Of a stretch of DNA of 34,306 nucleotides, positions 8,539-33,971 are shown piece by piece. The notes under the pieces are model-generated. The model was not told where the DNA came from and did not search any database. It was given only the letters and a program-made list of their open reading frames with translations. The position numbers and the translations under genes were made by a program. Position 1 is the first letter of the stretch, and the number at the start of each line of letters is the position of its first letter. This DNA comes from Oscillospiraceae bacterium (lineage in GTDB: Bacteria; Bacillota; Clostridia; Oscillospirales; Acutalibacteraceae): assembly GCA_031282735.1 (NCBI GenBank), contig JAITDE010000076.1:1-34306 (forward strand), read 5' to 3'.

Positions 8539-9282
8539 ATGCAACAACCCGCCATCGAGGTCGCCGACGTGAGCATGGTGTTCAGCATCGGCGCACAAAA
8601 AATTGACAATCTCAAAGAATATATCATCCGCGTGTTCAAGCGCAAATTGCAGTTCCGCGCGTTCTGGGCGCTTCGCGATATCTCTTTCCGCGTCGAAAAG
8701 GGCGAACGCTTGGGCGTTTTGGGATTCAACGGCGCCGGCAAGAGCACTTTGCTCAAACTGATTGCCGGCGTGATGAAGCCGACGTCGGGCACAATTGAGG
8801 TCAACGGTGTAATCGCGCCCTTGCTGGAACTGGGCGCGGGCTTCGACAACAACTATTCAGGGCGCGAAAACATCTTTTTATACGGCGCGACCATGGGCTA
8901 TTCGCGCAAGTATATCAAAGAGCGGTATGACGAAATTTTGCAGTTCTGCGAGTTGGAAGATCTGATCGACACGCCCGTGAAAAATTACTCGTCGGGTCAG
9001 CGCGCGCGCTTGGGATTTTCGATTGCCACGGCGGTCGATCCCGAAATATTGATTGTGGACGAAGTCCTCAGCGTTGGAGATGCCCGTTTTAAATCGAAGA
9101 GCGAGGCAAAAATCAAAATGATGTTCGACAAGGGCGTAACGGTGTTGTTCGTTTCGCACAACACCGCACAGGTGCGTAGTCTTTGCGACAAAGCCATTTT
9201 GCTGGATAAAGGCAAAATCATCGCCCAAGGCACGGCGCGGGACGTTTGCGATTTGTATGACGAAATGACGAAGAAGAAGTAG
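8539..9282 (+). CDS. polysaccharide/teichoic acid ABC transporter ATP-binding protein (Wzt/TagH type)
   Basis: GFNGAGKSTLLKLIAG, YSSGQRARLGFSIA, ILIVDEVLSVGD, FVSHN; no C-terminal carbohydrate domain. Confidence 0.92.
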   Translation: MQQPAIEVADVSMVFSIGAQKIDNLKEYIIRVFKRKLQFRAFWALRDISFRVEKGERLGVLGFNGAGKSTLLKLIAGVMKPTSGTIEVNGVIAPLLELGAGFDNNYSGRENIFLYGATMGYSRKYIKERYDEILQFCELEDLIDTPVKNYSSGQRARLGFSIATAVDPEILIVDEVLSVGDARFKSKSEAKIKMMFDKGVTVLFVSHNTAQVRSLCDKAILLDKGKIIAQGTARDVCDLYDEMTKKK

Positions 9283-18052: not shown

Positions 18053-18106
18053 CGGACGGCAAAACTGATTTGACAATCGTTCTTTCATTTTGTTGGCGAA
18101 GAAAGC

Positions 18107-18135
18107 TTGACGAATGCGCAAAGAAAGATTATAAT
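18107..18135 (+). promoter_or_regulatory. promoter of the rnf operon (TTGACG-N17-TATAAT)
   Basis: -35 at 18107-18112, -10 at 18130-18135, 34 nt before the rnfC ATG. Confidence 0.7.
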
Positions 18136-18168
18136 CAATCAGTCAGTTATCAAACAAAGGAGAACGCC

Positions 18169-19497
18169 ATGGGTATCTTCCAACAGCGGGGCATTCATGT
18201 TGTGCACAACAAGCACACAAGCAAAATCAAACCCGTGCGCATCGAAACTTGCGGTGAAGTCACGCTGATGATGAAACAGCACATAGGCACACCGTGCGAG
18301 CCGCTTGTCAAAGCGGGGGACGAGATTCGCTTGGGGCAGGTGATCGGCGACACGCAAGCGGGGCTTGCCGCGCCCATCCACGCGAGCGTTTCAGGCAAAG
18401 TGAAGCGCATTGAACAAATTCGCATCCTTACAGGTGAGGACGTGAAAGCCGTCGTGATTGCCTCAGACGGGCAAATGACACCGTTGGACGGCATCGCCCC
18501 GCCTGTGATAAAAACGCGGGACGACTTTTTTGCGGCAATCCGCGCGTCAGGATTGGTCGGTTTGGGCGGCGCGGGATTTCCCGCCCACGCAAAGCTCAAG
18601 AGCGCTTGCGGCGACGTTGATGTTTTGCTTGTGAACGCCGCGGAATGCGAACCCTATATCACGGCGGATCACCGCGAAACGTTGGATGCGGGAGACGACG
18701 TTCTGGAGGGCATTGCGCAGATTGCGCATTATTTGGGGATTCACAAGGCGATTGTTGGCATCGAAAGCAACAAAGGCGACGCGATCGGCAAGTTCCGTGC
18801 GCTGTGCGCCGCAGTCTCCACGCCCGAACTCAAAATCACGACTGCCGTCCTCCCGAGCCGATATCCGCAGGGGGCGGAAAAGATGTTCATCTATTCGCTC
18901 ACAAAGCGGATTGTGCCGTTGGGCAAATTGCCGTCGAGCATCGGCGCGTTGGTGATGAACGTGGCAAGCGTCGCGTTTTTGGCGCGGTATATCAAAACAG
19001 GTAAGCCGCTTGTGAGCCGCACGGTCACCGTGGACGGCGGCGCGGTGCAGTCGCCCATCAATGTGCGCACGCCCATCGGCATTCAGGTGCGCGAGTTGAT
19101 TGACTTTTGCGGATTGCAGGACGTGCGCCCAAAAAAAATCATTATGGGCGGTCCAATGATGGGTGCGGCGACGCCCGATTTGAACGCGGTGATCAGCAAA
19201 TGCAACAACGCCGTGTTGCTTTTTGACGATAAGCAGACGCAAAAACGTCCCGAAACCGCATGTATCCGTTGCGGCAATTGCGTGGCGGGGTGTCCCATGA
19301 AACTCCTGCCGCTCAAACTGGAGGCGGCATACCGCGCGAACGACACTGCCGCACTCACGCGTTTGGATGCCATGGGTTGCATGGAATGCGGGAGTTGTTC
19401 CTATGTTTGCCCCGCGAGCCATGAACTGGTGCAATGTATACGGTTGGGCAAGCGATTGTTGCGCGAAGCACAAAGCAGGGAGGGATCAAAAACATGA
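18169..19497 (+). CDS. rnfC: Rnf electron transport complex subunit C
   Basis: GLVGLGGAGFPAHAKL, NAAECEPYITADHR, two 4Fe-4S motifs CIRCGNCVAGCP and CMECGSCSYVCP. Confidence 0.95.
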   Translation: MGIFQQRGIHVVHNKHTSKIKPVRIETCGEVTLMMKQHIGTPCEPLVKAGDEIRLGQVIGDTQAGLAAPIHASVSGKVKRIEQIRILTGEDVKAVVIASDGQMTPLDGIAPPVIKTRDDFFAAIRASGLVGLGGAGFPAHAKLKSACGDVDVLLVNAAECEPYITADHRETLDAGDDVLEGIAQIAHYLGIHKAIVGIESNKGDAIGKFRALCAAVSTPELKITTAVLPSRYPQGAEKMFIYSLTKRIVPLGKLPSSIGALVMNVASVAFLARYIKTGKPLVSRTVTVDGGAVQSPINVRTPIGIQVRELIDFCGLQDVRPKKIIMGGPMMGAATPDLNAVISKCNNAVLLFDDKQTQKRPETACIRCGNCVAGCPMKLLPLKLEAAYRANDTAALTRLDAMGCMECGSCSYVCPASHELVQCIRLGKRLLREAQSREGSKT

Positions 19498-20513
19498 GTG
19501 CCGAAGAAGAAAAAACATTGACGCCCGCATCGGGGCAGCAATTGGCGATCGTCAGCGCGACGCCGCACTTGCGCACACACCGCACAACGCAGGCGATTAT
19601 GTTGGATGTCTGCCTTGCGCTCATTCCCGCCGTTGCGGCATCGGTTTGGTGCTTCGGCACACGCGCGTTGATCGTCATGCTTTTTGCGGTGATCAGTTGC
19701 GTGGCGTTCGAGGCAATCACACGTATTGCGCTCAAACGCGCACAGACCGTGCAGGATTTGAGCGCGGTCGTCACAGGCTTATTATTGGGCATGAATTTGC
19801 CGCCGACGTTGCCGCTGTGGATGATACCGATCGGATCTTTTGCGGCGATCGTCGTCGTCAAGCAACTTTTCGGCGGAATTGGTCAAAACTTTGCCAATCC
19901 CGCAATTACCGCGCGGATTGTGCTGATGCTGTCGTTCCCCACACAAATGACAAGCTGGAACGCGGCAAACGGACACGCGTGGGGCGCGGATGCCGCCTCC
20001 GCCGCAACGCCCATGAAAGCGTTGACGGCAAACGAACTCGGCGCGTTTTCGGGCGATGATTTGCCTTCCATCCTTGATATGTTCGTGGGACGGCATGGCG
20101 GCAGTTTGGGCGAAACCTGCGCCGTCGCGCTCCTGCTCGGCGCGATCTATCTGTGCGTGTTCAGAGTCATTACGCCGCTGATTCCTTGTTTTTATATCGG
20201 CACGGTTGCGGTGATTACGTTCATTGCGGGCGGATTTGACGCACAATTCACCATCTATCACCTGCTGGGCGGCGGATTGATTCTCGGCGCGTGTTTTATG
20301 GCGACGGATTATGCGACTTCACCCGTGAACTGGAAAGGTAAAATTGTTTTCGCGATTGGTTGCGGCATACTCACAAGCCTGATCCGCCTTTTCGGCAGTA
20401 TGCCTGAGGGCGTATCGTTCAGCATTCTTTTGATGAATCTGCTTGTGCCGCACATCGAAAACCTCACCGCGCCGAGAACCTTTGGAAAGGAGCGGAAACG
20501 CCATGCAAAATAA
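19494..20513 (+). CDS. rnfD: Rnf complex subunit D
   Basis: RTHRTTQAIMLDVCLALIPA; FGGIGQNFANPAITARIVLMLSFP; ATDYATSPVN; ATGA overlap with rnfC. Confidence 0.93.
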   Translation: MSAEEEKTLTPASGQQLAIVSATPHLRTHRTTQAIMLDVCLALIPAVAASVWCFGTRALIVMLFAVISCVAFEAITRIALKRAQTVQDLSAVVTGLLLGMNLPPTLPLWMIPIGSFAAIVVVKQLFGGIGQNFANPAITARIVLMLSFPTQMTSWNAANGHAWGADAASAATPMKALTANELGAFSGDDLPSILDMFVGRHGGSLGETCAVALLLGAIYLCVFRVITPLIPCFYIGTVAVITFIAGGFDAQFTIYHLLGGGLILGACFMATDYATSPVNWKGKIVFAIGCGILTSLIRLFGSMPEGVSFSILLMNLLVPHIENLTAPRTFGKERKRHAK

Positions 20514-21039
20514 GACGTTCGCCGAAATCGCGCGTCCCGCCTTGGTCTTGTTTTTGGTCTGCTTGCTATCCGCAACCGCACTGACAGTCGCCAACAGTTT
20601 GACGCGTGAAAACATCACAAAAAACGCCGCACAGCGCGCAAGCGACTCGCGCTCCGCCATTTTTCCGGGGGCGTCGCTCACGGCGCAGGCGATTGACGGC
20701 ACAACCTACTATAAAGCCGAAAAAAACGGCGTACTCATCGGCTACGCAATCGATGCCAGCGCAAAGGGATACGGCGGCGACGTCGGGATCATTGTCGGCA
20801 TTGGGGCGGACGGCAAAGTGCTCACTGTGCAAGTGGTCGCCGCCGACGGCGAAACGCCCGGATTGGGGCAAAATGTGAAAGACGCAAGCTTTTTGGAACA
20901 ATTCAAAAATCTGCAATCCGCTATGTCCGAAACGCAATTGGATGCCGTCGCCAGCGCGACCTATTCCAGCCGTGCGGTCATGGAGGGTGTCAATGACGCG
21001 CTCAGCTTATACGCGCGTTTTGCGGGAGGTGCTCAATGA
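20503..21039 (+). CDS. rnfG: Rnf complex subunit G, FMN-binding
   Basis: GETPGLGQNV and TQLDAVASATYSSRAV flavinylation motif. Confidence 0.93.
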   Translation: MQNKTFAEIARPALVLFLVCLLSATALTVANSLTRENITKNAAQRASDSRSAIFPGASLTAQAIDGTTYYKAEKNGVLIGYAIDASAKGYGGDVGIIVGIGADGKVLTVQVVAADGETPGLGQNVKDASFLEQFKNLQSAMSETQLDAVASATYSSRAVMEGVNDALSLYARFAGGAQ

Positions 21040-21731
21040 AATCAATCAAAAAAGAAAATCTTCTCCATGAACTGACAAAAGGATTTTTGAAAGAAAATCC
21101 TGTATTGCGCCTTGTGCTGGGCACTTGCCCGACCCTCGCCGTGAGCACGTCGGTGGAAAGCGCGATTGGTATGGGACTTGCCGCGACGGCGGTTTTGCTG
21201 TTCTCGAACATGCTCATTTCCGCGTTGCGCAAGGTCATCCCCGACAAAGTGCGCATCCCCGCCTACATCACCATCATCGCCGCGCTCGTCACGGCCGTGC
21301 AACTGCTGGTTAAAGCGTATCTTCCTGCGCTCGATCAAAGTCTTGGAATTTATCTGCCGCTCATCACGGTCAACTGCATCATTTTAGGGCGCGCTGACGG
21401 CTTCGCCAACAGGCACAGCGTCGCCGCGTCCGCGCTTGACGGGATCGGCATGGGGATTGGCTTCACCGCCGCACTGCTTGCCATGAGCGCAATCCGCGAG
21501 GTGCTCGGCGCCGGCACATTTTATGGTATATCCCTCTTCGGCGAAAATTACACGCCGATGTTGATTTTCATCCTGCCGCCGGGAGGATTTTTTGTCTATG
21601 GTCTTTTGACTGCGGCGGCAAACGCGATTGCCCGCAAGAAAAAAGCGCCGATCAAGGAATCTTTCGGCTGCGAGGGTTGCCCAAGTGCGGCCGGGTGCGC
21701 GGGCTGCAGTTCAAAGGAGGTTTTGGAATGA
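21036..21731 (+). CDS. rnfE: Rnf complex subunit E
   Basis: ENPVLRLVLGTCPTLAVSTS; LPLITVNCIILGRA; Cys-rich C-terminal tail; ATGA overlap with rnfG. Confidence 0.93.
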   Translation: MKSIKKENLLHELTKGFLKENPVLRLVLGTCPTLAVSTSVESAIGMGLAATAVLLFSNMLISALRKVIPDKVRIPAYITIIAALVTAVQLLVKAYLPALDQSLGIYLPLITVNCIILGRADGFANRHSVAASALDGIGMGIGFTAALLAMSAIREVLGAGTFYGISLFGENYTPMLIFILPPGGFFVYGLLTAAANAIARKKKAPIKESFGCEGCPSAAGCAGCSSKEVLE

Positions 21732-22315
21732 AAGAATACATTGCAATTCTTGCCACGGCGATTTTGACGCAAAACTTTGTGCTTGCAAAATTTTTGGGGA
21801 TTTGTCCTTTTCTCGGTGTCTCCAAAAAGGTGAACACCGCGTTGGGCATGAGCGTCGCGGTCATCTTCGTGATGTTGCTTTCCACCGTGGTCACTTACCC
21901 CATCAATCAATTGCTCGTGGCGCAGGATCTCGCGTTTTTGCAAACGGTCGTCTTTATTTTGGTGATTGCCGCGCTGGTGCAATTGGTGGAAACCACACTC
22001 AAAAAATTTCTGCCGCCTCTCTATGAATCACTGGGGATTTATCTTCCGCTCATCACCACGAACTGCGCCGTGCTGGGCGTGGTATTACTCAATATTTCGG
22101 AGGGCTACGGTTTTGCCGCGTCAATGATCAACACGTTGGGCGCGGGAATTGGTTTTTTGGTTGCAATGCTCCTGTTCGCGGGCGTGCGCCAACGGATGGA
22201 AAATAGCGATATCCCAAAAGCCTTTCAGGGTTTGCCGTCAACGCTGATCGCGGCGGCAATCACCTCGCTGTCGTTCCTGGGTTTTTCCAGATTGATTGAA
22301 GGTATGTTGGGCTAA
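21728..22315 (+). CDS. rnfA: Rnf complex subunit A
   Basis: TQNFVLAKFLGICPFLGVSKK; GIYLPLITTNCAVLGV; ATGA overlap with rnfE. Confidence 0.95.
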   Translation: MKEYIAILATAILTQNFVLAKFLGICPFLGVSKKVNTALGMSVAVIFVMLLSTVVTYPINQLLVAQDLAFLQTVVFILVIAALVQLVETTLKKFLPPLYESLGIYLPLITTNCAVLGVVLLNISEGYGFAASMINTLGAGIGFLVAMLLFAGVRQRMENSDIPKAFQGLPSTLIAAAITSLSFLGFSRLIEGMLG

Positions 22316-25909: not shown

Positions 25910-26683
25910 ATGATTTATTTCCGTGATGTAACAAAGGAATATCCCAACGGCACACGTGCGCTCAACGGTGTCAATTTGCATATTGCGCCGCAGGAATTCG
26001 TGTTTGTGGTCGGCGCGTCCGGCGCGGGCAAAAGCACGTTTTTGAAGTTGCTTCTGCACGAGGAATTGCCCACAGCCGGCAGTGTGCGGGTGGGGCGTTT
26101 TGAACTCAACGCGCTGAAAGCGCGGCAAATTCCCCTGTTCCGCCGTCAGCTCGGCGTGGTGTTCCAAGATTTTCGGTTGATTGCAACGATGGATGTTTAT
26201 GACAACATTGCGTTTGCCATGCGCGTCGTTGGCGCGAAAGAAAAACACATCGCCGAGCGTGTGCACTATTTATTGCATTTGGTCGGTTTGGAGCGAAAAG
26301 AGCACAGCAAGCCCAGTGAACTTTCGGGCGGCGAACAACAGCGTGTCGCCATCGCCCGCGCGCTTGCGAACGAACCTGATTTGATTATCGCCGACGAACC
26401 GACAGGGAACATTGATCCACGCATGAGCCAAGAACTTTTGGAACTGTTTGTGCAGCTCAACGAGGCCGGCACAACCATTGTTATGGTGACGCATGCCCAT
26501 GATTTGGTGCGCCATTACGGCAGACGCGTGATCATTTTGGATAACGGCAGTATTGCCGCCGACGGCGGCTTGCGCCCAACGGTGTCTCCGGCTCCGCCGC
26601 GCCAATCAATGCCCGCGCGTGCGCACCGCAAACCCCCGCAGCTCCCGCCGGAAGAAGTGTTTTCAAATATTTGGAAGGGGTAG
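25910..26683 (+). CDS. ftsE: cell division ATP-binding protein FtsE
   Basis: MIYFRDVTKEYPNGTRALNGVNLHI, GASGAGKSTFLKLL, LSGGEQQRVAIARAL, adjacent to FtsX. Confidence 0.92.
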   Translation: MIYFRDVTKEYPNGTRALNGVNLHIAPQEFVFVVGASGAGKSTFLKLLLHEELPTAGSVRVGRFELNALKARQIPLFRRQLGVVFQDFRLIATMDVYDNIAFAMRVVGAKEKHIAERVHYLLHLVGLERKEHSKPSELSGGEQQRVAIARALANEPDLIIADEPTGNIDPRMSQELLELFVQLNEAGTTIVMVTHAHDLVRHYGRRVIILDNGSIAADGGLRPTVSPAPPRQSMPARAHRKPPQLPPEEVFSNIWKG

Positions 26684-29226: not shown

Positions 29227-29262
29227 TAAAACGAAATTTCCATGGGAGATTTCGTTTTTTCT
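29227..29262. terminator. rho-independent terminator
   Basis: AAAACGAAATTTCCATGGGAGATTTCGTTTTTTCT. Confidence 0.75.
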
Positions 29263-29263
29263 C

Positions 29264-29292
29264 TTGACAAATCATTAAACAGCATATATAAT
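29264..29292 (+). promoter_or_regulatory. consensus sigma-A promoter (TTGACA-N17-TATAAT)
   Basis: -35 at 29264-29269, -10 at 29287-29292; 20 nt before the Rrf2 gene. Confidence 0.85.
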
Positions 29293-29311
29293 ATATTTAG
29301 ATTAACTGGTA

Positions 29312-29758
29312 ATGGAGGCGGCAACCATAGGATATTCAACTTCATTCACACAGGGAATTACATTGCTCTTAACCATTCATTCGCTGAATGAAGCAAATGG
29401 CGCGCAGGTAGTCCCAACCAAATTGCTCGCCGCATACGCCGGCATCCCTTTCGCGTCGGCGGTTAAAACGCTGAAGAGCCTGAGCGCGGCGGGGATAACC
29501 GATTCAAAAGAAGGCGCCGGTGGCGGCGCGTTTCTGGCAAGACCGGTGTCTGAGATTACCCTGTTGGATATTTTTAAGGCGGTTGAACAGGACACGACCC
29601 TTTTCAAAATGCATACGGGAATCAATTGTGACCAAAGCCGCGTTGACGGATTGAAACGCCGCGTGGAGGTTTGTATTACCGATGCCGCTAACGCGATGAA
29701 GGAATCCCTGCGCGGCGTCACTTTGGAAAACATATGGACGGGGAGATGTTTGCCTTGA
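29312..29758 (+). CDS. Rrf2-family transcriptional regulator
   Basis: TSFTQGITLLLTIHSLNEANGAQVVPTKLLAAYAGIPFASAVKTLKSLSAAGITDSKEGAGGGAFLARPVSEITLLDIFKAVE. Confidence 0.85.
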   Translation: MEAATIGYSTSFTQGITLLLTIHSLNEANGAQVVPTKLLAAYAGIPFASAVKTLKSLSAAGITDSKEGAGGGAFLARPVSEITLLDIFKAVEQDTTLFKMHTGINCDQSRVDGLKRRVEVCITDAANAMKESLRGVTLENIWTGRCLP

Positions 29759-30366
29759 GGAAAAAACTGATTCTTGTAACGCTTGCGGCTGTTATCCTGC
29801 TTGTGGGCGCTACGGTCATCAAAACAAAAAACCCTTTCAATTTCGGAATAAGTCCGCTTTACGTTAACGACGGCTTACGGCAAACCGGCCGACGGCTTGA
29901 GGTTGCTTTCACCTGTGACAACCTGCTCATGGTGGCCTCGAACCAGTACGCAATCTGGATTGAGGATATGGACGGCAACTATGTCGATACGCTCTACGTT
30001 ACCCGTTATACCGCCGGGGAGGGACACCGCCGCCGCCCGCAGTCCATACGGGAATGGGTCGCCGCCGCCGACCCCGGGAATATGCGCGCTTCAGAAATTG
30101 ACGCGATAGCGGGGGCTACGCCAAAGCCGGGCAATTACGTCGTGTGTTGGGATTTCACGGACGGCAAGGGTAATCCCGTTACCGGCTCTCGGTATCGTTA
30201 TTTCATTGAGGGAACACTATACATGGACGATGATGTGATGTACTCCGGCGTCATCCATTTGGGTGACGACGCGTGGGAAGAATATCCCGAACCCGAATAC
30301 ACCGTCGCGGACAGCGAATATAAGGCAATGCTCTCGAATGTTCGGGTGGCGTACTACCCTGATTGA
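29734..30366 (+). CDS. DUF2271-like membrane-anchored extracytoplasmic protein
   Basis: N-terminal TM helix; SEIDAIAGATPKPGNYVVCWDFTDGKGNPVTGSRYRYFIEG. True start may be TTG at 29755 (TTGA overlap with rrf2 stop, GGGGAG upstream). Confidence 0.75.
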   Translation: MDGEMFALRKKLILVTLAAVILLVGATVIKTKNPFNFGISPLYVNDGLRQTGRRLEVAFTCDNLLMVASNQYAIWIEDMDGNYVDTLYVTRYTAGEGHRRRPQSIREWVAAADPGNMRASEIDAIAGATPKPGNYVVCWDFTDGKGNPVTGSRYRYFIEGTLYMDDDVMYSGVIHLGDDAWEEYPEPEYTVADSEYKAMLSNVRVAYYPD

Positions 30367-30382
30367 GCCGGAGGATATTTCA

Positions 30383-30805
30383 ATGAAAACAGAAAACAGA
30401 ATTGTTTTAGACTACGCGATGCTGTGCGCACTCCTGATGATGATGGTCAAACTCATGACGGGCGCGATTGTGCATGAATCCTTGGGCATAGCTTTCACCG
30501 TTCTCGCTGTTGTTCACCTGCTGAACAACAAGATCGGTCTGAAAAATGTGCGCAAAAAAGCGCGGTTTGCCGTAAACACCCTCTTGCTGCTTGCTCTCAT
30601 GTCAACCGTGGTCAGCGGCATGATGCTCTCTGTATCTTTGTTCAGATTTTTGAACATCCCCTATCGCGAGATTGTCTATACCGTTCACACCTCGTCGGCG
30701 TATGCCCTGTTTCTGCTGTCGCTGACGCATTTGTGTATGCACGGAAAAGCAATCGCCGCTTTTTTACGAAAGAGAAAACAGGCGGGGACGGAGGAGAAAT
30801 CATGA
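30383..30805 (+). CDS. DUF4405-like four-helix membrane protein (cytochrome b-like, candidate haem binding)
   Basis: Four hydrophobic helices with conserved-looking His (VVHLLNN, YTVHTSSAYALF, LTHLCMHGK); GGAGG ribosome-binding site. Confidence 0.7.
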   Translation: MKTENRIVLDYAMLCALLMMMVKLMTGAIVHESLGIAFTVLAVVHLLNNKIGLKNVRKKARFAVNTLLLLALMSTVVSGMMLSVSLFRFLNIPYREIVYTVHTSSAYALFLLSLTHLCMHGKAIAAFLRKRKQAGTEEKS

Positions 30806-31458
30806 GTAAGGTCATTGCAATCAACGGCAGTCCGCGTAAAAACGGAAACACCGCCGCCCTGCTTCAAAGAGCTTTAGAAGGTGCGGCTTCCGTCGGCGCG
30901 GAAACGGAACTGGTTCACCTCGTGGATTTATGTTACAAGGGGTGCGTGAGTTGCTTTGCCTGCAAACGCAAGGGCGCGAAGAATCCGAATCGTTGCGCTA
31001 TGCAAGACGACCTTTCCCCGATATTGGAAGGGGCGATGCGCAGCGACGTTATCATCTGCGGCTCGCCGATTTACCTTGGCGACGTGACTTCCCTGATGAG
31101 GGGATTCATCGAACGTTTGGGTTTTATCAACGTGTCCTATAGCCGCAAAGACAACAACAATTTCAAGGGCAAACCTAAAAACTGCGCATTCTTCTACACG
31201 ATGAACGCTCCGAAACCGATGCACTTGCTCTTTGCGGCGGCTTATTTGTATAACACGGGAATGCTGCGAAGATTCGGCGGCAAAACAAAACAGTTGGTCA
31301 GTGCCGATACTTGGCAATTTGATGATTACAGCAAGTATGACGCTTCCAATTTCGGCATTGAAAAGAAGAAAAAGGCGCGCGACACGGTATTTCCGAAAGA
31401 CTGCCAAAAAGCCTACGATATCGGCCGCCGTCTCGCTTTCATCAAGGAGGGCAAGTGA
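30802..31458 (+). CDS. NADPH-dependent FMN reductase / iron-sulfur flavoprotein family
   Basis: VIAINGSPRKNGNTAALLQRAL; CYKGCVSCFACKRKGAKNPNRC; IICGSPIYLGDVTSLMRGFIER; ATGA overlap with upstream gene. Confidence 0.87.
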   Translation: MSKVIAINGSPRKNGNTAALLQRALEGAASVGAETELVHLVDLCYKGCVSCFACKRKGAKNPNRCAMQDDLSPILEGAMRSDVIICGSPIYLGDVTSLMRGFIERLGFINVSYSRKDNNNFKGKPKNCAFFYTMNAPKPMHLLFAAAYLYNTGMLRRFGGKTKQLVSADTWQFDDYSKYDASNFGIEKKKKARDTVFPKDCQKAYDIGRRLAFIKEGK

Positions 31459-32255
31459 TGGCGAACAGAGTTTATTTTTTTACGGGAACAGGCAACAGCC
31501 TGCGTGTGGCGCGAAGCATTGCGGGCGCTCTTGACGATTGCGAAGTAATCGCCATTCACAAGGGCGCGGCGTCAACTGTCCCGGAAAGTTTGGAGCGCGT
31601 CGGCTTCGTATTCCCCGTCTATTTCTGGGGTCTGCCGGGTATGGCCGCGGAATTTTTACGCGGCATAAGCCTTCCGGAGCAAGGCGGCACGTACTATTTC
31701 GCCGTCGCCACGTTCGGCGGGATAATCGGGAACGCGCTCCCGCAAGTTAAACGGTTGCTTGCCGATAAAGGGATAACGCTAAACTATGGCGGCGGCGTAT
31801 GTTCTTACAGAAACGCCGTCGTCTACTACGAAATGAAGCAGGATGTCGAAGCCGTTACCCGCAAAGCTGAAGCCCGCGCTCAAAAAGTGGTGTCGGCGGT
31901 AGTCGCTAAGAAGAAAAAGCGTGTCGGTCGCGGCATAAAGAAAATCTTTCAGCTAAACGCCGATAACATCGCCGCGTTCCATGCGATGGCTCTGCATTAT
32001 ACCATCAGCGGCGATTGCGTGGGATGTGGCCTATGCGCGTCAGTTTGTCCGGCGGAGAACATTCTGTTTCAAGACGGAAAGCCTGTGTTCGGCGATGCTT
32101 GCGAATACTGTCTTGCTTGTATCCAGCATTGCCCGAAACGCGCCATCAACGATGGAGATAAGACCGTCACGCGAGGAAGATACACGCATCCCAATGTGAC
32201 CGCCGATATGATTGCTTGCTATTATAAGTCGAATAACGAAACGCACGAAAGTTGA
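31455..32255 (+). CDS. EFR1-type flavodoxin-ferredoxin fusion protein
   Basis: [17 protein letters not shown] flavodoxin motif; [15 protein letters not shown] and [16 protein letters not shown] 2x[4Fe-4S]. Confidence 0.88.
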
Positions 32256-33853: not shown

Positions 33854-33882
33854 TTGACAAACGCGCTGTTTTCGCGTATAAT
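33854..33882 (+). promoter_or_regulatory. consensus sigma-A promoter of tRNA-Lys (TTGACA-N17-TATAAT)
   Basis: -35 at 33854-33859, -10 at 33877-33882, 14 nt before the tRNA. Confidence 0.85.
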
Positions 33883-33895
33883 GATTTTGTTCTTG

Positions 33896-33971
33896 GCACC
33901 ATTAGCTCAGTTGGTAGAGCACCTGACTCTTAATCAGGGTGTCCACGGTTCGAGCCCGTGATGGTGTACCA
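33896..33971 (+). tRNA. tRNA-Lys (anticodon CTT), CCA encoded
   Basis: Acceptor GCACCAT/ATGGTGT, D-arm TAGCTCAGTTGGTAGAGCA, anticodon loop CTCTTAA, T-arm CACGGTTCGAGCCCGTG. Confidence 0.95.

Follow-up and report, generated by a model that had tools for sequence, protein, structure and literature searches.

Within a 34,306-nucleotide contig of an Oscillospiraceae bacterium (the window), we identified a cassette of five tightly linked genes at positions 29264-32255 that encode, in order, an Rrf2-family regulator, a DUF2271 protein, a DUF4405 protein, a flavodoxin-fold reductase (FMN_red family) and an EFR1 ferredoxin. The cassette is real, conserved and mobile, and it probably encodes a self-regulated, horizontally mobile system for transmembrane electron transfer of the flavinylation type, with electron export as the favoured function. 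DUF2271 and DUF4405, both envelope redox proteins recognised only recently, are here combined with candidate cytosolic donors in a single transferable unit. If this reading is true, the cassette offers a compact set of one regulator and four redox proteins for reconstituting transmembrane electron transfer to a covalent flavin in E. coli, and would show that systems of this type spread among gut bacteria as plug-in modules, relying on the flavin transferase already present in the host.

Organization, distribution and transfer of the cassette

The cassette is preceded by a sigma-70 promoter, TTGACA-N17-TATAAT (29264-29292, forward strand), which matches at 12 of 12 hexamer positions. Perfect sequences of this form were found in none of 100 shuffles of the window vs. 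two in the real window, so that a promoter of this form would hardly be expected by chance; the second lies at 33854-33882, just 5' of a tRNA-Lys gene (33896-33971). The 17-nt spacing is kept in three related loci (L018, L019 and L020), with identical hexamers in L018 and L019, and TACAAT as the -10 box in L020. All five genes are on the forward strand: the genes for Rrf2 (29312-29758) and DUF2271 (29755-30366) share a TTGA overlap at 29755-29758, a 16-nt gap precedes the DUF4405 gene (30383-30805), which overlaps the FMN reductase gene (30802-31458) through ATGA at 30802-30805, and the latter meets the EFR1 gene (31458-32255) in TGATG at 31456-31460. A first-pass annotation of the window had proposed a perfect promoter driving five linked genes between a cell-division operon and hisF, and both proposals held: profile matches identified FtsX and an M23 peptidase as upstream neighbours and HisF as the downstream neighbour, and FtsE (25910-26683) is supported by a match to the FtsX-adjacent gene in a congener. 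The terminator proposed upstream fared less well: a weak terminator-like hairpin that would close the upstream operon is present (29228-29258, forward strand), but the region (6 hairpins) has no more of them than would be expected from shuffles (6.5).

A scan with a DUF2271 alignment across 84,980 species, each represented by one genome, yielded 269 relatives, and the analysis continued with the best 80. Among these 80, the complete five-gene order was found in L020. In L018 the cassette runs to the contig end and comprises the first four genes; in L019, Rrf2 and DUF2271 precede the scar of a clean internal deletion (8633-8700), which joins the spacer after DUF2271 to the last FMN reductase codons, with 1018 nt lost relative to the window. 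The DUF2271 and DUF4405 genes are adjacent in L018, L020, L021 and Clostridium sp. MCC353 (L029), in the last two without the flavoproteins. Most related loci among the best 80 of 269 have DUF2271 without DUF4405, and the Treponema loci of the same DUF2271 clade (L023 and L024) have no cassette partners beside DUF2271. Among 391 genomes of the class, 27 have DUF4405 and 4 have DUF2271, and the only one with both is the genome of the window; the other DUF4405 loci examined have no DUF2271, EFR1 or Rrf2 match in their 1.5-kb flanks. Within the genus, any DUF2271 was found in 3 of 14 genomes, the other two at 39-41% identity. Thus, co-occurrence of the families is not the rule, and the cassette is a combination both rare and local. 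A lack of co-occurrence, named in the first-pass annotation as a refuting outcome, is therefore partly observed: the cassette recurs in L020 (complete), L018 (to the contig end) and L019 (truncated), but not generally. DUF2271 and DUF4405 may be the core, with the remaining genes accessory.

Comparison of the cassette DNA shows 87.5% identity between the window and L018 (1766 columns, match starting at 29261) and 86.6% between the window and L019 (1130 columns, starting at 29255), both matches beginning just 5' of the -35 box. HisF, by comparison, is only 66% (L018) and 53% (L019) identical to that of the window, vs. 78% in a congener; the corresponding protein identities for L020 are 72% for DUF2271, 60% for EFR1 and 61% for HisF. 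DUF2271 relatives within the order are 38-47% identical, which indicates that HisF is normally the more conserved protein. Thus, DNA identity of about 87% in the block, set against HisF identities of 53-66%, is strong evidence of horizontal transfer as a unit, promoter included, bearing out the acquisition suspected earlier, and the upstream flanks are unrelated between the window and the other cassette loci. L018, L019 and L020 derive from sample Nm470; in PMC11707648 this code denotes the termite Neotermes meruensis. The cassette has been exchanged among termite-gut bacteria that are only distantly related. An assembly or binning error behind the shared cassette is unlikely, given the DNA differences of about 12-32% between the copies and their different flanks. 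The cassette has no GC shift (about 48-53%, like its surroundings), and no carrier element was seen next to it within the window. A congener (G336) is without DUF2271 and has both FtsEX-M23 and hisF without the cassette, but on different contigs.

The DUF2271 and DUF4405 envelope proteins

The DUF2271 gene product matches PF10029 (50.1 bits vs. a cut-off of 27.3). Its start is most likely the TTG at 29755, because this TTG is kept in L018, L019 and L020 and the upstream ATG codons are not; residues are numbered here on the 210-residue form that starts from the ATG at 29734. Topology prediction gives one N-terminal hydrophobic membrane helix followed by a beta domain, and the protein is predicted to be membrane-anchored outside the cytosol. 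A fold search with its structure model (pLDDT 86) returned no match at E ≤ 0.001, and weak FlgD-like matches. DUF2271 is a proven ApbE substrate, flavinylated at [S/T]GA[S/T] and usually found with PepSY membrane proteins (PMC8238504), and D-x-x-[S/T]-G-A-[S/T] is described as the minimal motif for ApbE (PMC12052999). The protein in the window reads DAIAGAT, with the Asp and the target Thr present and Ala at the fourth position; as this falls outside the published [S/T]GA[S/T], we do not class it, by its sequence, as a proven ApbE-flavinylated member. This motif is the main clue to the mechanism and had been overlooked in the earlier annotation.

D123, G127, A128 and T129 are invariant in 7 DUF2271 proteins, and across 36 aligned proteins T129 and P130 are invariant and Asp123 and Ala128 nearly so. 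The three nearest cassettes (L018-L020) have DAITGAT, and GAT is retained in every DUF2271 protein that adjoins a DUF4405 gene. Many other DUF2271 proteins alter the motif Gly or Ala; TGPT, TSAT or SSAT, with the target Thr present, is found in L037, L041, L055, L058, L064, L074, L087 and other spirochaete loci. Such spirochaete proteins would either lack flavinylation or depend on an ApbE with another specificity, and, given these altered motifs, the Thr may be kept for a reason other than flavinylation.

The host genome has a single ApbE, on contig C53, where the genes beside it are rnfB, NusG_II and Hpre_diP_synt_I. Neither the cassette nor the related loci (best 80 of 269 DUF2271 relatives) contain apbE; the cassette would have to borrow the enzyme, because the sole genomic ApbE sits on another contig. 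ApbE is present in 5 of the 6 other DUF2271-bearing genomes of the order. Host RnfG (DAVASAT) and RnfD (DAASAAT), encoded at 19434-21039 of the window, are without a canonical SGAT-type motif, and RnfG, like the DUF2271 protein, has Ala at the fourth motif position. In other organisms, both of these Rnf subunits are covalently flavinylated. Since the host motifs deviate in proteins that are flavinylated elsewhere, the host ApbE may accept variant motifs, which hints at relaxed specificity in this lineage.

The DUF4405 gene product (PF14358, 32.0 bits vs. a cut-off of 26.7) has 140 residues and four long helices and is without the six transmembrane helices of the described family, whose members are haem-b cytochromes encoded beside flavinylated proteins, often Flavodoxin_4 (PMC11334425). 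Its histidines are arranged as H31-X13-H45 and H102-X13-H116, and these four, as well as H120, are conserved in 32-34 of 34 homologues, in agreement with the cytochrome b-like assignment made earlier. The short four-helix protein probably carries two haems; by the positive-inside rule both of its ends would be cytosolic, which would place H31/H102 near the outer face of the membrane and H45/H116 near the inner face. The structure model is weak (mean pLDDT 59.6), and a fold search with this low-confidence model gave no useful match. The first-pass annotation knew of no assigned joint function for the parts of the cassette; one is in fact assigned to both envelope parts in PMC8238504 and PMC11334425.

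The Rrf2 regulator and the cytosolic flavoproteins

The regulator matches PF02082 (70.4 bits, above the Pfam cut-off), and only two of its cysteines, C106 and C121, are conserved among four aligned orthologues. The Fe-S regulators of the Rrf2 family (IscR, NsrR and RirA) have three clustered Cys ligands. With only C106 and C121 conserved, the protein cannot hold a cluster like these regulators, and the Fe-S or NO sensing noted for the family in the first-pass annotation is not supported. Among proteins of solved structure, 1ylf is its best relative, and ywnA was matched too; these matches, together with the absence of Fe-S cysteines, place it near the SifR/YwnA class, whose members have a single conserved Cys at the start of helix 5. 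SifR, also without Fe-S cysteines, is a monothiol quinone sensor that controls ywnB, catE, fre and the ferric reductase YhdA (PMC9218516). The cassette regulator resembles this class in its linkage to flavin-dependent reductases, and differs from it in that C106 aligns two residues away from the Cys of 1ylf, in its second invariant cysteine, C121, and in its promoter, where the SifR operator TGTAA-N9-TTACA was not found (best match with 3-4 mismatches of 10). A possible, weak operator is an inverted repeat around the -10 box (29274-29306), GTTAAAC-N19-GTTTAAC, which reads ATTAAAC/GATTAAC in the window; it matches at 7/7 in L018 and L019, 5/7 in the window and 3/7 in L020. In the start region of the Rrf2 gene (29312-29330), the window, L018 and L019 read ATA at a codon that is ATG in L020; GGAGG is found 8 nt 5' of this ATA in the window, and the true start may be the non-standard ATA or lie further upstream.

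The FMN reductase (PF03358, 74.7 bits, above the Pfam cut-off) has a conserved CX2CX2CX10C, a pattern similar to one in 7d38 Cd1, and may be an iron-sulfur flavoprotein (Isf-like); Isf proteins combine a flavodoxin fold with a compact four-Cys [4Fe-4S] motif, in which the last spacing is shorter than X10. EFR1 is, by its profile match (NF038196, 210.7 bits vs. a cut-off of 75), a clear member of its family, with a flavodoxin domain and two complete CX2CX2CX3CP 4Fe-4S motifs.

Proposed electron route, alternative readings and known systems

Under the favoured reading, ferredoxin or NAD(P)H would supply electrons to two cytosolic flavoproteins, EFR1 and the FMN reductase with its four Cys. The short DUF4405 cytochrome would carry them across the membrane, with one b-haem at H45/H116 (inner) and one at H31/H102 (outer), and pass them to an FMN that the host ApbE would attach to Thr129 of membrane-anchored DUF2271. 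The DUF2271-bound FMN would then reduce an extracytoplasmic acceptor, and Rrf2 would repress the block at its promoter and release it upon cysteine modification. We propose the envelope half of this route because of the published DUF2271 and DUF4405 biochemistry and the residues conserved here, and the cytosolic half, with EFR1 and the FMN reductase as donors, because of gene linkage only. The path from cytosol through membrane to extracytoplasm in the first-pass annotation is consistent with the published work on both families, but its local redox control, if of the Fe-S/NO type, is unsupported, the cysteines being absent. The strongest doubts concern the AGAT motif, the altered motifs of other DUF2271 proteins and the weak DUF4405 model.

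One alternative is that DUF2271 is not flavinylated and is instead an Ig-like (FlgD-like) structural or binding domain, with DUF4405 serving another partner, for example quinone. AGAT in place of [S/T]GA[S/T], the TGPT, TSAT or TGST of related proteins and the FlgD-like matches would fit such a protein, but GAT is kept wherever DUF4405 adjoins and the three nearest cassettes have DAITGAT, and we regard this possibility as decidedly unlikely. It is also unlikely that DUF2271 and DUF4405 form the real system, with Rrf2, the FMN reductase and EFR1 loosely attached and having no role in transmembrane electron flow. This would account for L021 and L029, where neither flavoprotein follows the two genes, for L019, which keeps Rrf2-DUF2271 with a scar over the rest, and for the MerR-type (L022) and XRE-type (L023) regulators found upstream instead of Rrf2; the stop/start overlaps or very short gaps that join all genes, in the diverged L020 too, argue against it.

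The regulator, with its lack of Fe-S cysteines and its matches to 1ylf and ywnA, would also suit a stress operon of the SifR/YwnA type, in which flavoproteins acting on quinones, O2 or peroxide as reductases are under the control of a Cys-sensing Rrf2, while DUF4405 and DUF2271 add membrane quinone or ferric-iron reduction, for detoxification or iron reduction rather than electron disposal. Quinone sensing by SifR and its control of flavin and ferric reductase genes (PMC9218516) favour this reading, but the two-residue shift of C106, the second invariant Cys and the absence of a TGTAA-N9-TTACA operator do not, and we consider it improbable. A more specific version of the favoured electron-transfer reading makes the cassette a mobile, inducible electron-disposal module of termite-gut Clostridia, in which an electrophile- or quinone-sensing Rrf2, a minimal two-haem DUF4405 and a flavinylated DUF2271 would pass ferredoxin-level electrons to extracellular lignin-derived quinones with a borrowed, Rnf-linked host ApbE; in this full form we think it very unlikely.

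Comparison with known systems places the cassette nearest to four of them, one being the SifR/YwnA class of regulators compared above. PepSY-like flavinylation systems (PepSY, DUF2271 and ApbE, often with DUF4198; PMC8238504) likewise use DUF2271 as an extracytosolic flavin carrier that is supplied by a haem-type protein in the membrane, whereas the cassette has DUF4405 instead of PepSY, is without apbE or DUF4198, adds cytosolic flavoproteins and Rrf2, and is found in Gram-positive-type hosts; a Pfam profile search found neither a PepSY membrane protein nor apbE among its five genes. DUF4405/Flavodoxin_4/ApbE clusters (PMC11334425) share the DUF4405 cytochrome beside an extracytosolic flavoprotein, but in the cassette the partner is DUF2271, not Flavodoxin_4, apbE is in trans, and DUF4405 has 140 residues and four helices vs. 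about 220 residues and six. In our reading, transmembrane electron transfer to an extracytosolic flavin is known and the combination of a membrane-anchored DUF2271, a short DUF4405 and cytosolic flavoproteins is unreported; a DUF2271-DUF4405 unit with candidate cytosolic donors was not found described in the literature. The Rnf complex also passes ferredoxin-linked electrons to covalent flavins outside, is encoded in the same window and would share the same sole ApbE, whereas the cassette has no sequence relation to Rnf subunits and relies on a b-type cytochrome in place of RnfA/E/D. Of the rnf genes, rnfC, D, G, E and A lie at 18070-22315 of the window and rnfB on another contig (L011, 10369-11154), so that the locus is split.
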